DNA from: a virus
IMG/VR virus record: IMGVR_UViG_3300037137_001352
Coordinates: 1-24,139 of that record
Length of the DNA stretch: 24,139 nt
Direction: 5' to 3' (one strand)
Below the pieces are notes generated by a model. The model saw only the letters and a program-made list of their open reading frames with translations. It searched no databases and was not told where the DNA came from. Below, in pieces: positions 11,379-19,896 of the stretch (its first letter is position 1; the number at the start of each line of letters is the position of its first letter). Position numbers and translations under genes: made by a program.

Positions 11379-14348
11379 ATGGTTCAACACCATATAGAGA
11401 TAAGTTTGTGCATGATTGTTAAAGATGAAACTGATTCATTGATGAAATGTCTTGATTCTATCAAACATTATGTTGATGAGATTAATCTTGTATTGACCGA
11501 TAAAACCGCATTAAAAACAAGGGAAATTGCACAACAATATACCAATAAAATATACGATTTTGAATGGAATGATAGTTTTGCTGATGCGCGTAATTACAGT
11601 TTTGAAAAATCGACAAAAGATATTATTTTATGGCTCGATGCCGATGATATTGTTCTAAACGGAGATAAACTCCATTATATTGTCGATACCGCATTTAGTA
11701 ATAAGGATATTGGCGTTATTTTCCTTCCCTATAATTATGAATACGACGATAATGGATTAGTTGTAACAAAACATGATCGTGAACGGATTGTTAGAAAAGG
11801 TGTATTTAAATGGGTTGGCGGGGTACACGAAACATTTATTCCCTTGAAACCATTTGCAATATTAAAAAATAAAGATATTATTGTAAAACATAATGGGAAA
11901 CGCCAATTTTCAAAAGAAAAACATGAAAGGAATCTGCGGATACTTGAAAAAGAGATTAAGTTATCGAACGAACCTCTCGATCCGCGTCTTATTTATCATT
12001 ATGCAACGACTTTAAAAGGATTAAGCAGAGATGAGGAAGCATTGGAATGGTTTGAACGATATGTCAAAGTTTCTGGGTGGGATGAAGAAATTTATATCGC
12101 ATATCATCGGATTTGTCAGATATATCAAGGAAGAAAGGATTACGATAAGGCAATTTCTACTTCCTTGACAGCACTTACCATTAAACCGACTTATAAAGAA
12201 GCATATTTTGATTTAGCAAAATCGTATTATTGGATTGGTAATCTTGATAAATGTATTCATTGGATAGAACAGGGATTAAGATTACCGTTGCCCGATACGG
12301 TTATAATCATTAATCCGCGAGAATATGATTATAACCCGCTTTTAATGTTATCCGATTGTTTATTCCGTAAAGGAAGGGCAAAAGAAGCATTAGCGTGTTA
12401 TAAAAAAATCAAACAGTTTAACCAAAATGATGAAAATGTTGATTATTCGATGAATTTGGTTCAACAATTTATACGGACAGAGGAAGCGGGAAAATCTCTT
12501 GTTGATGCGGTTGAATTCTGTTTACAGAATGAAGAAATCGGAAAAGCTGAAAAGATAATAAATAACGCACCGATTGAATTGCGGGATTTACCGTTAGTTC
12601 AGAAACAACGTATGCGGATACGATTTATAATGGATAGGATTCGCGGATATGATAACGGAGAACGAAATTTATCTATATCAATGAACGCAAATACTGTCCC
12701 TGAACTTGATAAAGAACAAAAATATCAAATGTTATTGGCGGGATTAAAAGCGAGAAAAGAAATTAAGAATATTCTTGATGTTGGTTGTTTTAACGGTTGG
12801 ATGGCAAATGCTCTTGCGAAAGAAGGATACTCTGTTACGGGAACAGATATAGGGAAAGAAGCATTAGAAATAGCAAAAAAGAATTCGGAAGGATTAACAA
12901 ATCCGTCAAAATTTGAATTTTGCAATTACCGTAATGTTGGTGCTGATTATTATAAGAAATTCGATGCCATAACGTGTTTTGATGTCATGGAACATGTTTT
13001 AAACCCTGTTGAACTCATAAGAAATCTCGAATTGGCGTGTAAGGATAATGGGTGGATATTTATTCATGTTCCTAACGGTGCATGGCATAAAGGGAATATG
13101 GATACCGACATAGAGGATTTATGGGAACATTATCAGAGTTTTGAATATCGTGATTTGGTTAATTTGTTTATAGGTAGACGAAATCTACATATTTATAAAT
13201 TGAACCATGATTGTGTTGAAAGTCCTGGGCAAAGTTCATTATTTGTTGTTTATCAAAATGCATTTAATTCTGGAAGAAAAATAGAATTTGTTTGTTTTAA
13301 TACGCCTGAACCGTTTTATCCTGATAAAATAAAAGAAGGTATCGGGGGATCGGAAGAAGCAATAATTAATATTACCAAAGAATTCGATAAAATGGGGTAT
13401 CGGGTAATAGTTTATAATAATTGCGAGGGTAATATCGGTATTCATGAAAATGTGGCGTATGTACCCGAAAATGAATTTGATATATTCGGTGAACATGATA
13501 TTGTAATCGCATGGAGAAATCCGTTTGTTTTTAAACTGCCAATAAACGCTAATTTAAAAATATTATGGTTACACGATGTGCCAGATGAGAAACATTATGA
13601 TGAAGAATTGCTTGATAATATAGATAAAATATTTGTTCTCTCAAAATGGCACAGGGAATGTATGCCGAATATCCCTGATGAAAAGTTCTATGTAACTCGT
13701 AATGGTGTGGACATAAACCTTTTTGAGAGATATACAAATATCGAAAGGAATCCATATAAAGTTGTCTATGGTTCTTCACCCGATAGGGGATTGGATAAAT
13801 TGCTTGAAATATGGGGTGATGTGAAAAAAGAAGTACCGCAAGCAGAACTTCACGTTTATTATGGGTGGGTAGTATATGATGCTTTGCGAACAGAACCCCA
13901 CCAGATTGCATGGAAGAAAAAAGTAATGGATATGATGAAACAGAACGGAGTTATAGATCATGGACGTATTGGGCATGAAGAATTAGCCAAAGAATATTCA
14001 TCTGCGGGAATTTGGTCATATTTTACATACTTTTATGAAATATCCTGCATTACCGCTATTAAAACTCAACTTGCCGGTTGTATCCCTGTATGTACGGATT
14101 TAGGGGCATTACCAGAAACCGTTAAAAATGGGGTAATTATTTCTGCCGATGTAAATACTTCCGAAGGATTAAATAAATGTAAAGAAATATTGATAGATAC
14201 GTTAAAGAATCAAGCAAAATGGAATAGGGAACTTATTAAACAAGCGGTAAAAACATATTATAAATGGTCGGTTATCGCGCAGGAATGGCAGAAAGATATA
14301 TTCAATGGAACAAAACGAACCAATAAAACCTTCAAAAATTATAATTAA
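11379..14348 (+). CDS. Fused glycosyltransferase-TPR-methyltransferase-glycosyltransferase
   Basis: This 989-residue protein has four recognisable parts. Residues 5-175 are a GT2 glycosyltransferase: start ISLCMIVKDE, metal-binding DADD at 87-90, and the WVGGVHE motif at 145-151 common in GT2-TPR proteins. Residues 200-410 contain TPR-like helical pairs (for example 215-230, 249-266, 274-300, 333-345). Residues 460-625 are a class I SAM methyltransferase, with ILDVGCFNGW at 465-474, acidic D490 and ITCFDVMEHV at 531-540. Residues 635-970 are a GT-B/GT4 transferase with GIGGSEEA (654-661), NGVD (775-778) and EISCITAIKTQLAGCIPV (887-904). It probably builds and methylates a short glycan on a virion or host surface molecule; the acceptor is unknown. 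It overlaps the next gene by 44 bases. Confidence 0.88.
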   Translation: MVQHHIEISLCMIVKDETDSLMKCLDSIKHYVDEINLVLTDKTALKTREIAQQYTNKIYDFEWNDSFADARNYSFEKSTKDIILWLDADDIVLNGDKLHYIVDTAFSNKDIGVIFLPYNYEYDDNGLVVTKHDRERIVRKGVFKWVGGVHETFIPLKPFAILKNKDIIVKHNGKRQFSKEKHERNLRILEKEIKLSNEPLDPRLIYHYATTLKGLSRDEEALEWFERYVKVSGWDEEIYIAYHRICQIYQGRKDYDKAISTSLTALTIKPTYKEAYFDLAKSYYWIGNLDKCIHWIEQGLRLPLPDTVIIINPREYDYNPLLMLSDCLFRKGRAKEALACYKKIKQFNQNDENVDYSMNLVQQFIRTEEAGKSLVDAVEFCLQNEEIGKAEKIINNAPIELRDLPLVQKQRMRIRFIMDRIRGYDNGERNLSISMNANTVPELDKEQKYQMLLAGLKARKEIKNILDVGCFNGWMANALAKEGYSVTGTDIGKEALEIAKKNSEGLTNPSKFEFCNYRNVGADYYKKFDAITCFDVMEHVLNPVELIRNLELACKDNGWIFIHVPNGAWHKGNMDTDIEDLWEHYQSFEYRDLVNLFIGRRNLHIYKLNHDCVESPGQSSLFVVYQNAFNSGRKIEFVCFNTPEPFYPDKIKEGIGGSEEAIINITKEFDKMGYRVIVYNNCEGNIGIHENVAYVPENEFDIFGEHDIVIAWRNPFVFKLPINANLKILWLHDVPDEKHYDEELLDNIDKIFVLSKWHRECMPNIPDEKFYVTRNGVDINLFERYTNIERNPYKVVYGSSPDRGLDKLLEIWGDVKKEVPQAELHVYYGWVVYDALRTEPHQIAWKKKVMDMMKQNGVIDHGRIGHEELAKEYSSAGIWSYFTYFYEISCITAIKTQLAGCIPVCTDLGALPETVKNGVIISADVNTSEGLNKCKEILIDTLKNQAKWNRELIKQAVKTYYKWSVIAQEWQKDIFNGTKRTNKTFKNYN

Positions 14349-15265: not shown

Positions 15266-15406
15266 ATGGATTCCGGCGATATAAAGGCAAAAGAACATAA
15301 TTCCGCCGATATTCATGCTAAGAAAATAATAATTTACGCTTGGGATGGCACTAATTATCGGCGGATTGTGTGCGATATTGATGGTATATTACAGGTAACT
15401 ACATAA
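15266..15406 (+). CDS. Small paralog of the following fibre protein's N-terminus (46 aa)
   Basis: The ATG at 15266 opens a 46-codon frame whose stop overlaps the next start as TAATG. The product (SGDIKAKEHNSADIHAKK, then YAWDGTNYRRIVCD and G-x-LQV) aligns along its whole length with the first 48 residues of the next protein (SGDIEGLEHSSIDIDAKR, YGWDSVNLAYTRISCD, GKLKI). It appears to be a stand-alone copy of that virion-attachment-like module, arising by tandem duplication. Its role is unknown, but it could compete for or occupy the same docking site. Confidence 0.6.
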   Translation: MDSGDIKAKEHNSADIHAKKIIIYAWDGTNYRRIVCDIDGILQVTT

Positions 15407-17019
15407 TGCAATCAGGCGATATTGAAGGTTTAGAACATAGTTCTATTGATATTGACGCAAAACGTACTGTTCTGTATGGTTGGGATAGTGTTAATCTTGC
15501 ATATACAAGAATATCATGCGATACTAATGGAAAATTAAAGATAGATACTTCCGCCAGTGATCTTCGTTATTTAAAACTCGATCAATCGGTCACTCAACAA
15601 ACTGTTGCCGGCGGTATGCCTTCTTTTACCAGTGGAATTTATCTTGCCGCAGGTGCTCATAAATCACTTTTAATATCGCAGGAATTATGGTTATCAGGTC
15701 AAGACGACGGATATGATTTTGATACTGATTTAAACTGTAATGGACAAACACCCTTTACTGATTTTTTCTTTTTTCTTCATAAGATTTCAACTGATACATA
15801 CCCGTTTTCAATAGACTATTTAGGAAATGTAACAGGATTATCATTTACTATTGGTGCAAATAAATTAACTACTTCTGAATTTGCTTATCTTGACGGACAA
15901 AATCAGGCAGTAAAAACCACTTCAAATCCAACTTTTGCAAGTGTAACTATACCAACTATTTATCCCACGGCAGGAATATTAACAATCATGGGAAATTTGG
16001 TTGTTGACAATGGTTCTCCTTCGGACAATAATAGCACGCTTACTTTGACAGGTGGAGTAGGATTAACTTCAACAATTCTTGCTATTTCTTCTGCAACAAC
16101 CGACAAGACTATAACTTTTCCCAATCTCACTGGTGTTCCCTTATTAACAACATCGGGTACTCCGACAGTTTATATGCCTCTTTGCGGTGCGACAGCAAAT
16201 CCTGGTGTCATTCAATCAGTTGCCACAGGACAACCGGCTTATCCCCTTTGTTATAATTCCAGTAGTTCATTACCGTCATTCCAAATATGCGGTGTTCCTG
16301 GCGGCGGAACAGGTACGATTTCTTTTACCGCTTATATGCCTATATGTGGTGGGACAACAACTACGAATCCTTTTCAATCCGTTGCTACGGGTACGATATA
16401 TTATCCTCTTTGTTATAACACCAGTAGTACAAAACCAACATTCCAATTATTAGACTTAAGGGGTGGTGGCACTGGCAGAGCAAGTGATACTGCTTATGCT
16501 TTGATTTCTGGTGGAACGACTACGACAGCGGCACAGGTAAGTATAGCCAATAGTGCGACAGTAGGGGCTATTTTCAGAGGTGCAGGAACGTCTGCGTATG
16601 CTGGTTGGTCATTGGCGACTATTACCGAAAGTGGTAATGACGTTACTCTTACCGCCGCAGGTGCAGGAACTATTACTCTTGCCCCAGGTACTGCTTCCAG
16701 TGATCCTTACTGGTTATCTCCATCAGGAAAGATAGGTTTGGGTGGTACAGCGATTACCAATAATGAAAGTCTATTATTTGACTTTGAAACGACAGCGAAT
16801 ATAGTAGGTGTGTCCTCGGCTACTGGCGTAACCGAAATAATTTTTACAGGAATTACTTTAACAGCACCGTATTTTGAAATTAGTACAGCACCGACAGCGA
16901 ATTCATCAGGAACGGTTGCAATAGTGGCAAAAGACGCAAATCTTTTAACGGCGAATAGTGGTTGGCTACCACTTAAGACAAATGCAGGAACAGTAGTCTA
17001 TATTCCTTATTGGGCATGA
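15406..17019 (+). CDS. Tail fibre-like protein with internal repeats
   Basis: The 537-residue product is Thr/Ser/Gly-rich beta structure typical of receptor-binding fibres. Residues 1-48 form a module also encoded separately just upstream. The middle (256-403) contains two 54-residue repeats and a partial third, each opening with Y-(M/A)-(P/L) and (C/S)GG/A and carrying GGGTG and SFTA/SDTA near the end. This is a fibre shaft repeat pattern common in metagenomic phages. The C-terminal part (about 405-537) is another beta-rich region and may contact the receptor. No enzymatic motif is seen. It lies in a run of fibre-type genes with no own ribosome site at its start, implying coupling. Confidence 0.72.
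   Translation: MQSGDIEGLEHSSIDIDAKRTVLYGWDSVNLAYTRISCDTNGKLKIDTSASDLRYLKLDQSVTQQTVAGGMPSFTSGIYLAAGAHKSLLISQELWLSGQDDGYDFDTDLNCNGQTPFTDFFFFLHKISTDTYPFSIDYLGNVTGLSFTIGANKLTTSEFAYLDGQNQAVKTTSNPTFASVTIPTIYPTAGILTIMGNLVVDNGSPSDNNSTLTLTGGVGLTSTILAISSATTDKTITFPNLTGVPLLTTSGTPTVYMPLCGATANPGVIQSVATGQPAYPLCYNSSSSLPSFQICGVPGGGTGTISFTAYMPICGGTTTTNPFQSVATGTIYYPLCYNTSSTKPTFQLLDLRGGGTGRASDTAYALISGGTTTTAAQVSIANSATVGAIFRGAGTSAYAGWSLATITESGNDVTLTAAGAGTITLAPGTASSDPYWLSPSGKIGLGGTAITNNESLLFDFETTANIVGVSSATGVTEIIFTGITLTAPYFEISTAPTANSSGTVAIVAKDANLLTANSGWLPLKTNAGTVVYIPYWA
16171..16614 (+). repeat. Coding tandem repeats in the fibre gene
   Basis: Two full units of 162 bases (16171-16332 and 16333-16494) and a partial third (16495-16614) encode repeats of 54 residues. 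Matching landmarks are YMPLCG / YMPICG / YALISG, SVATGQPAYPLCYN / SVATGTIYYPLCYN, and GGGTG in the first two units. The units have diverged at many positions. Confidence 0.7.
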
Positions 17020-17023
17020 TATT

Positions 17024-18007
17024 ATGGATACAGGATACTTAAGTTCAGGTGGGCAAGGTGTAATGGCATACGGGGGATCATCGTATACTTGGAGTAATCC
17101 TACCTATGTTCAATATGATGACGGTGTTCGTGCGACACTTCTTATCGTTGCGGCAGGATATAGTAATTATGTCACAGTAAGTAATTTTGCATTTTCTATA
17201 CCTGCGGGGGCAATAATAAGAGGTATACAGGTTGGAATAGTTCAGGAGGCATTGCCTGTAGCCCACGTTACCGCCAAAGATAAGGCGGTGCAACTTATTA
17301 AGGCTGACGCAACTCTTGGTAGTGAAAATAAAGCGACTGCAACAGAATATAATCCGATAGATACTTACCAATATTATGGAGGTGCGGCAGATTTATGGAG
17401 TGAAGTCTTGACTGTTGCTGATGTCAATAATGCTAACTTTGGAGTTGCTTATTCGGCGCAAGGACAATATTGTTTTCCCGCAGGAACATTAATAAAAACC
17501 GAAGGGGACGCAATACCTATTGAATTAATAAAATACGGTGATGAAGTTCTTGCTTTTGACGATAATCGTCAGATAATTAATGTTAAAGTAAAATCGAATC
17601 TTCAAGCGGAATCACCTAAAATCGTGCGTATTAAAGCTGGTGATAACGAAATAGTCGCATCAACTCAACACCCATTTTATAACGGCAAGGAATTTGTAAC
17701 GATTGATAGTTTAATGGTCGGCGATACGGTATATATTCTCAAGAATGGGATTCTCATTCCGCAGATTGTTTCTTATACGGAAATTATTGAACAGGAAACG
17801 ATTGTCTATGCTCTTTCAGTTGATTATCCGAACACCTATTTCGCTAACGGATTTGCGGTTCATAATAAACAACAACTTACTATTTACTGCAATTATATTT
17901 CAATGAAAGTTTATTATACGTTACAAGGCATGAAATTAATGGGTGGGTCTATAAAATTAATAGGCGGAAGGATACTATTAACAAATAACCCGATAATAGA
18001 AACATAA
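17024..18007 (+). CDS. Virion-type beta-sandwich protein interrupted by a Hint (intein-like) domain
   Basis: The 327-residue product has an N-terminal 149 residues of a beta-sandwich pattern seen in phage tail/fibre proteins: TWSNPTYVQYDDGVRA, SIPAGAIIRGIQV, then YYGGAADLWS and NNANFGVAYSAQ. A Hint domain follows (150-281), then QQLTIYCNYISMKVYYT, which reads as the missing last strands of the same sandwich. The Hint domain has C150 in CFPAGTLI, T214-x-H216 in STQHPFYN, and ends FAVHN with H280-N281. The next residue is K282, not the Cys/Ser/Thr of standard inteins. Self-cleavage or unusual splicing would therefore process this virion protein. There is no ribosome site before ATG 17024, five bases after the preceding stop. 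Confidence 0.8.
   Translation: MDTGYLSSGGQGVMAYGGSSYTWSNPTYVQYDDGVRATLLIVAAGYSNYVTVSNFAFSIPAGAIIRGIQVGIVQEALPVAHVTAKDKAVQLIKADATLGSENKATATEYNPIDTYQYYGGAADLWSEVLTVADVNNANFGVAYSAQGQYCFPAGTLIKTEGDAIPIELIKYGDEVLAFDDNRQIINVKVKSNLQAESPKIVRIKAGDNEIVASTQHPFYNGKEFVTIDSLMVGDTVYILKNGILIPQIVSYTEIIEQETIVYALSVDYPNTYFANGFAVHNKQQLTIYCNYISMKVYYTLQGMKLMGGSIKLIGGRILLTNNPIIET
17471..17866 (+). other. Hint/intein-like domain coding segment (132 codons)
   Basis: This is the part of the preceding gene encoding residues 150-281. It holds the N-terminal block (C150, CFPAGTLIKT), the TxH block (STQH), the block VYALSVDYPNTYFAN and the terminal HN. At 132 residues it is a minimal domain with no homing endonuclease. 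Lys at +1 places it nearer to bacterial intein-like (BIL) domains than to standard inteins. Confidence 0.8.
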
Positions 18008-18834: not shown

Positions 18835-19896
18835 ATGAATGTTGCCGATATTAAAACACAATTACAGAATTTAACGGGTAGTTTAGCAAGTGATACAAGG
18901 GTTGCGGCTCGTATGCTTACTAACATAAATAATGCAAGACGTGAACTTTCACGCAGGGATTGGCAATTTTTGCAGAAAGTATATCATTTAAGATTAAAAA
19001 AAGATTATATTACAGGCACAGTTTCGGTCAACAATGAATCGAATACCGTTACGGGAACTAATACGGTATGGGATTCTACCATGATCGGTTCTTATATAAC
19101 AATAAATGGTGCGGAATATTATCGAATAATAACTGTAACCAGTGCGACTATATTGATAATAGATCAAGCATATATCGGAACGAATGTAACAAATGGTTCT
19201 TATATTATCAGAAAAATTTATTATCGTGTACCTGGTGATGTAAGAAAAATAGAATCGATGATGAATTTTATTATACCGTCAAAATTACAATATACTGAAA
19301 ATAATGTTTTTAATGCGTTTAACCCTGATTACAGTATAACGGGAGATCAAACGGAAGTTACCGAATGGGGTAGATATAATATAGAAACCACTTATGGGAC
19401 TGGAACAGTAGCATCGGGTACGGTAAACGGAAATATTATAAATGGCAGTGGGACAACGTGGTTATCAACTGTTATTCCTGGCGATAAAGTTATTTTAAAT
19501 GGTACTACTGTTTACAATGTCGATAGGGTGAATTCTAATACTCAAATAGTTTTATGTCAAAAAATGTTATTAGCGAATATTAGTAATGATATTACAATAT
19601 ATCCTAATCCCGACTCTATTATGGTGCGTTTCAATTCTAACGCAAATGCCGACAGGATTATACCGATTAATTATTATCATCGTGCGTATGATTTTGTCAA
19701 TATTTATGATGAAGATGAATTTACGCGATTATATCCCGAACTTGTCATTGAAGGTGCTTTAATCTGGGAAAAGCGGTGTGCGGAAGATGCTTCGTGGGTA
19801 ACGGATTATAACGGTTGGAAAAATAGTTCTATCCCAGAATCTATGGCAGGAAATAAACGGGAAGGTGTTTGGAAACCTAATATTTCAAGATATTAA
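18835..19896 (+). CDS. Head-tail adaptor / stopper-like protein with twin SH3-like modules
   Basis: AAGGAAT precedes ATG 18835. The 353-residue product starts with a helical region (MNVADIKTQLQNLTG to LSRRDWQFLQ, residues 1-50) typical of short-tailed phage adaptors that bind below the portal. Two related beta modules follow, at about 61-112 and 195-246, each with GTV...(G/S)GT-x-W and an NG-T/A-x-x-Y core. They are separated by and followed by helical and strand regions (KIYYRVPGDVRKIESM, and YPELVIEGALIWEKRCAED). This plan fits a tail tube/adaptor protein linking portal to nozzle. Position before the nozzle-like gene supports it. Confidence 0.68.
   Translation: MNVADIKTQLQNLTGSLASDTRVAARMLTNINNARRELSRRDWQFLQKVYHLRLKKDYITGTVSVNNESNTVTGTNTVWDSTMIGSYITINGAEYYRIITVTSATILIIDQAYIGTNVTNGSYIIRKIYYRVPGDVRKIESMMNFIIPSKLQYTENNVFNAFNPDYSITGDQTEVTEWGRYNIETTYGTGTVASGTVNGNIINGSGTTWLSTVIPGDKVILNGTTVYNVDRVNSNTQIVLCQKMLLANISNDITIYPNPDSIMVRFNSNANADRIIPINYYHRAYDFVNIYDEDEFTRLYPELVIEGALIWEKRCAEDASWVTDYNGWKNSSIPESMAGNKREGVWKPNISRY

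Follow-up and report, generated by a model that had tools for sequence, protein, structure and literature searches.

Textbook protein splicing requires a nucleophile at the position that follows the intein (+1). A-type bacterial intein-like domains (BILs) without a +1 nucleophile can splice through a free amino group, and those that have been studied yield mostly cleavage products (PMC4031507, PMC7664689 for cleavage; PMC4031507 for splicing); reviews place BILs in hypervariable bacterial proteins (PMC7765530). The closest described relatives of the domain considered here are ctBIL4 of Clostridium thermocellum (2LWY) and BIL2 of the BUBL locus of Tetrahymena thermophila (6Y75, 6TMM). BIL2 has been reported to form an isopeptide bond that joins its N-flank to a Lys side chain (PMC8616854), and in the construct that was solved (N143A) a Met follows the last Hint residue. 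Hint domains are also found in canonical phage inteins, many of which carry an endonuclease and interrupt nucleic-acid enzymes (terminase, helicase, polymerase), and as PT-HINT in Rhs/polymorphic-toxin type proteins, where they precede a C-terminal effector.

The window analysed here is a 24,139-base virus record that carries terminase, portal and major head protein genes. Within it, a Hint domain interrupts a beta-sandwich protein encoded between a fibre-like gene and a putative tail gene. The features are as follows, where L122 denotes the contig IMGVR_UViG_3300046484_000042.

17024..18007, + strand: gene of the Hint-interrupted beta-sandwich protein (ORF translation, 327 aa plus stop)
17024..17470, + strand: N-terminal flank, aa 1-149, the beta-sandwich minus its last strand (tblastn, model)
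17471..17866, + strand: Hint domain, aa 150-281, A-type BIL-like, 132 aa, endonuclease-free (Pfam, model, VIA)
17471..17473, + strand: Cys150, the Hint Cys1, invariant in the 48-row alignment A6; putatively thioester-forming, as in its family
17660..17671, + strand: block B, Ser213-Thr-Gln-His216 (SxxH; alignment A6, translation)
17861..17866, + strand: block G, His280-Asn281, invariant in A6; by family, the probable site of Asn cyclisation
17867..17869, + strand: Lys282, the +1 residue, a class feature of compact phage Hints (29/64 viral Hints; also L122)
17876..17920, + strand: last strand of the sandwich, aa 285-299, LTIYCNYISMKVYYT, completing the domain after the insert (strand in the model, pLDDT up to 96; alignment A3)
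15406..17019, + strand: upstream fibre-like protein, syntenic with L122 493-2448 (39% identity)
18835..19896, + strand: downstream protein, apparently tail-tubular-A-like from its position and sequence start (weak phrog tail matches)

A sequence-only reading of this DNA had placed the gene between fibre and adaptor genes. The fibre-like neighbour stands, with no family match found for the protein at 15406-17019, whilst the downstream 'adaptor' is only roughly borne out, by weak phrog 'tail' matches to the gene at 18835. From the position of its gene and from relatives fused to tail proteins, we infer that the Hint-interrupted protein is a virion component. The virion gene cluster also encodes a 989-aa protein (window 11379-14348), which combines a glycosyltransferase part (phrog_13126) and a methyltransferase part (phrog_22502) with another region at the C-terminus.

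Residues 150-281 are confirmed as a complete Hint domain. The translation contains the motifs first read from the sequence, namely C150 in CFPAGTLI, STQH at 213-216 and a VHN that ends at N281 and is followed by K282. Profile searches, which the same reading had proposed, matched Pfam PT-HINT (E 7.4e-10 for the domain alone), Hint_2 (3.6e-7) and Intein_splicing (3e-6), with Hint also matched more weakly than PT-HINT, and NCBIfam intein_Cterm at 19.5 bits (cut-off 15.6). The best solved relative by sequence is 2LWY (E 1.1e-8). A model of the domain built on A6 has a pLDDT of 94.9 and a pTM of 0.89, and its nearest solved folds by VIA are BIL2 (6Y75, Z 21.9) and ctBIL4 (2LWY, Z 21.8), with mini-inteins and Hedgehog trailing by 1-2 Z units (Foldseek/VIA); the Foldseek and VIA matches to inteins, BILs and Hedgehog place the fold in the Hint (Hedgehog/intein) superfamily. 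Cys1 (C150), the block B His (H216) and the terminal His-Asn (H280-N281) are invariant across A6. Two positions depart from the usual pattern: the first residue of block B is Ser, where Thr is usual and Ser occurs in 5/64 viral Hints (among the matches listed), and the domain has NTY where many phage Hints read HTY, so that Asn replaces the block F His.

In sequence terms the domain has the features of an A-type BIL, with Cys1, the block B His, a C-terminal His-Asn and a +1 residue (K282) other than Cys, Ser or Thr. It resembles ctBIL4 most closely, with an rmsd of 1.2 A over 132 residues and a shared Cys1, His-Asn end and lack of Cys/Ser/Thr at +1; it differs from ctBIL4 in that it occupies one loop of a tail-type phage sandwich known uninterrupted elsewhere, and in that its +1 Lys recurs in phage relatives. 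BIL2 superposes at 1.5 A over 138 residues and likewise has no +1 nucleophile, but its Lys is in the downstream ubiquitin-like domain, whereas the Lys in the window immediately follows the Hint, at +1, with a phage sandwich as host; the Lys is compatible with a predicted BIL2-like isopeptide formation, and compatible only. With canonical phage inteins the domain shares the Hint fold, the VHN end and an in-frame position within a domain for which empty, uninterrupted relatives are known. Unlike them it has 132 aa, lies in a structural protein and lacks the Cys that they nearly always have at +1 (54/69 larger or unresolved Hints, among the matches listed); nor is K282 the Cys, Ser or Thr expected there of class 1 inteins. 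PT-HINT is the top Pfam family and toxin Hints are of similar compact size; however, no effector follows here, the 46-aa C-flank consisting of the last beta-strand of the sandwich followed by a short tail. In the few toxin-like Hints of the collection (L004, L005, L006) the +1 residue is Ala, Ser or Leu. A homing element is ruled out because the 132-aa domain leaves no space for an endonuclease, and toxin delivery is ruled out because nothing effector-like follows the Hint. The domain is best described as a variant of A-type BIL-like domains, and its interest lies mainly in the phage-wide occurrence of HN-K and in the clean test case that it offers for splicing without the usual nucleophile.

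The proposal that the flanks form a single interrupted domain holds in both sequence and structure. The N part matches a tail tubular protein of MW202473 (tblastn E 8e-11), and the joined flanks (aa 1-149 plus 282-327) align with the start of that protein (UOF77207.1) at 34% identity and 90.1 bits, compared with 80.9 bits for the N part alone; the alignment is gapless at the junction, with loops of equal length. Homologous phage proteins without the insert were indeed found: the empty sandwich is present at dozens of viral loci, and the joined flanks match 32 viral empty domains with E values of 4e-12 to 2e-36. The insertion point is a variable loop that precedes the last strand (consensus YVDxIxITVYYT). 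Empty homologs whose flanks fail to join would have spoken against a single domain; in those examined (MW202473, the 32 empty domains and alignment A3) the flanks join. The predicted structure of the full protein has a pLDDT of 78.8 and places the sandwich strands with high confidence on either side of the Hint (140-149 before it and 285-299 after it), with the N flank mostly at 83-97 and one block at 75. CBM4-2, CBM15, MAM and similar domains align by VIA to model residues 1-300, spanning the Hint, at Z 8-10; these middling scores support a CBM-like jelly roll for the model and say nothing on function. The empty phage protein A0A6J5M8F0 (200 aa) aligned to the model over 320 columns (TMt 0.67). 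Taken together, Pfam, the fold model and the flank alignments agree on a Hint domain within one beta-sandwich of a virion-type protein.

A second Hint at the same site was found in L122, which has the same sandwich, a Hint in the same loop and a Lys after the Asn. Identity between the two proteins is 35% for the N part, 44% for the Hint and 45% for the C part. The Hint has therefore diverged about as far as its host protein, which fits long vertical retention with the catalytic residues kept, Cys1, the block B His and His-Asn being intact in both copies. A pattern of HN plus the last sandwich strand, with +1 free and exact spacing, returned the L122 contig and no third same-site Hint in the viral collection, and 15 chance matches, none with a Hint, in bacterial and archaeal genomes; no other loci combining a Hint with the sandwich were found. 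Judged by this pattern, insertions at the same site with exactly that spacing are rare. A scan for nearby relatives with the window protein alone gave no matches, and using the upstream gene to look for syntenic relatives turned up no closer phage, either Hint-bearing or Hint-free.

The Lys at +1 had been taken for a departure from the standard intein pattern, but it is not an exceptional loss of the nucleophile: Lys is the commonest +1 residue of compact phage Hints, is common to L122 and is kept at protein ends. When viral contigs were scanned with the pattern TYxAxGxxVHN, leaving +1 unconstrained, Lys was found at +1 in 18/41 Hints of <210 aa and Cys in 54/69 larger or unresolved Hints (among the matches listed). 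Pooling of loci, application of a domain HMM and removal of sequences >60% identical left 64 compact HN-ending viral Hints, in which +1 is Lys in 29 (45%), Cys in 10, Gly in 7, Ala in 6 and Arg in 4 (among the matches listed); Ile and Val also occur at +1 in relatives. Over positions +2 to +10 of the same 64 Hints the Lys frequency averages ~6%, giving a binomial probability of ~1.5e-18 for the enrichment, a figure that ignores relatedness. On the Hint tree, which is weakly resolved (5/61 branches starred), the Lys+1 state requires 15 changes. Proteins that end just past the Hint keep the Lys (HN-K-stop in L023 and L281, HN-KIA-stop in L201, HN-KAGD-stop in L034), and Lys is at the aligned junction column in 0/19 empty sandwiches (alignment A3). 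Because it is enriched, kept at protein ends and absent from those empty sandwiches, Lys+1 seems to be part of the Hint cassette and not of the host protein. As a cellular control, the VHN pattern was run on 398 genomes of one phylum and was unmatched. Most matches of HN-K Hints among cultured phages were to inteins of helicases or terminases, and a search of open-access papers for Lys+1 splicing and virion Hints found nothing on phage HN-K.

The strong preference for Lys at +1, even as the final residue, argues for some chemical role, whilst a side-chain nucleophile is probably no strict requirement, given that relatives have Arg, Gly and Ala in this position. Lys and Arg together could also reflect an influence of charge on the cyclisation of Asn, or could serve as an N-terminal signal for degradation of a released C-fragment.

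The Hint can probably cut itself out, and we predict, with slightly better than even confidence, that this is a phage tail-type sandwich in which an A-type BIL-like Hint removes itself and ligates the sandwich back together onto Lys282. Cys150 would accept the acyl group of Gln-Tyr149 as a thioester, assisted by the block B His216; cyclisation of Asn281 would free Lys282; and attack of the Lys282 amine on the thioester would restore a 195-aa sandwich (20.9 kDa) with the scar GQY-K-QQL, releasing the 14.7-kDa Hint on ligation. The attacking amine would be the alpha-amine, as in A-type BILs, or more speculatively the epsilon-amine, giving an isopeptide as reported for BIL2. With the two ends kept together by a single folded sandwich, ligation would be expected to compete with hydrolysis better than in most BILs. 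If it splices, the domain would count as a mini-intein that works without the textbook nucleophile, in a structural protein of the tail for which empty relatives are known. Points against splicing are the predominance of cleavage products in the A-type BILs studied, the block B Ser for Thr, the block F NTY for HTY and the number of same-site examples, which is two (among the matches listed). The two possible bonds would differ on digestion: an ordinary Tyr149-Lys282 peptide bond would leave Lys282 cleavable by trypsin, yielding QQLTIYCNYISMK, whereas an isopeptide would block trypsin there and leave the alpha-amine free, with the same mass as the peptide join. A broader and distinctly doubtful proposal is that HN-K compact phage Hints form a separate splicing class, in which the +1 Lys side chain replaces the thiol or hydroxyl and takes the N-flank acyl group as a stable isopeptide; a Lys side chain would then join the mature virion protein, and branched or lysine-capped virion proteins would arise from terminal or tandem Hints. 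Were the conserved Lys the nucleophile, phages would have an ATP-free route to isopeptide-joined virion proteins.

Cleavage without ligation, in which the Hint would cut one or both ends of the 35.6-kDa precursor and leave the 149-aa and 46-aa parts, of 15.7 and 5.2 kDa, either paired non-covalently as a nicked sandwich or released, is the rival that carries most weight, and it appears somewhat unlikely. It is what tested A-type BILs predominantly do (PMC4031507, PMC7664689), it would accommodate the Gly, Ala, Arg, Ile and Val at +1 in relatives, and several phage Hints lie at the extreme C-terminus, HN being followed by just 1-7 residues, where rejoining would be of little apparent use. However, it leaves the conserved Lys unexplained, above all where Lys is the sole remaining residue (L023, L281). 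In every other relative found, moreover, the domain is uninterrupted, and here the insert lies ahead of its final strand, a site suited to restoration. Even if cleavage is all that occurs, the strong preference for Lys+1 in phage BIL-type domains demands an explanation, and none was found in the open-access literature.

A further rival is that the Tyr149 thioester is captured by some other amine, provided by a small molecule or by a Lys in a different virion protein, so that the N part becomes cross-linked, much as in BIL2 ubiquitin-like transfer or in Hedgehog. Since the N part lacks its own last strand, its release or transfer is disfavoured here, as the product would be an incomplete sandwich; nor is any acceptor known. 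One of the two nearest folds does provide a precedent, in that Tetrahymena BIL2 moves a ubiquitin-like domain onto lysines (PMC8616854), and many phage Hints are in tandem or follow Gly-rich linkers at protein ends, but for this protein transfer is considered very unlikely. Equally improbable is that the insert is inert, a degenerate Hint retained as an extra surface domain of the virion protein: the block B Ser and the absence of the block F His from its usual place would suit such decay, yet the catalytic residues are intact in both same-site copies despite 44% identity between the Hints. Excision with religation onto Lys282 is the reading that we prefer.

Compact Hints were found in several other arrangements in virus proteins. 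Tandem compact Hints 1-17 residues apart, mostly with HN-K or HN-R ends, are present in single proteins of L008, L023, L187, L224 and L231, with a lone Arg between two Hints in L231 and L187. Tail proteins that carry a Hint followed by Lys at their very N-terminus occur in L031 (3935-6871), L057 (1144-4086), L184, L202, L211, L229, L266, L269, L273 and L275; in these N-terminal Hints ~22-27 residues, often GG-rich at the end, lie ahead of the Cys, and the L031 protein outside its Hint matches phrog_31 'central tail fiber J'. Two adjacent proteins of one virus contig (L065:1391-2370 and L065:3416-4537) each have a compact Hint near the C-terminus, with Lys at +1 in one and Thr in the other, and L065:3416-4537 matches phrog_38766 'virion structural protein'. 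In the cultured Achromobacter phage 2-1 (OQ974181.1), a tail-module protein (L305:2083-3525) has near its C-terminus a Hint-like domain without the His-Asn end, preceded by the Cys/Asn-rich linker NCNCDCNCS.
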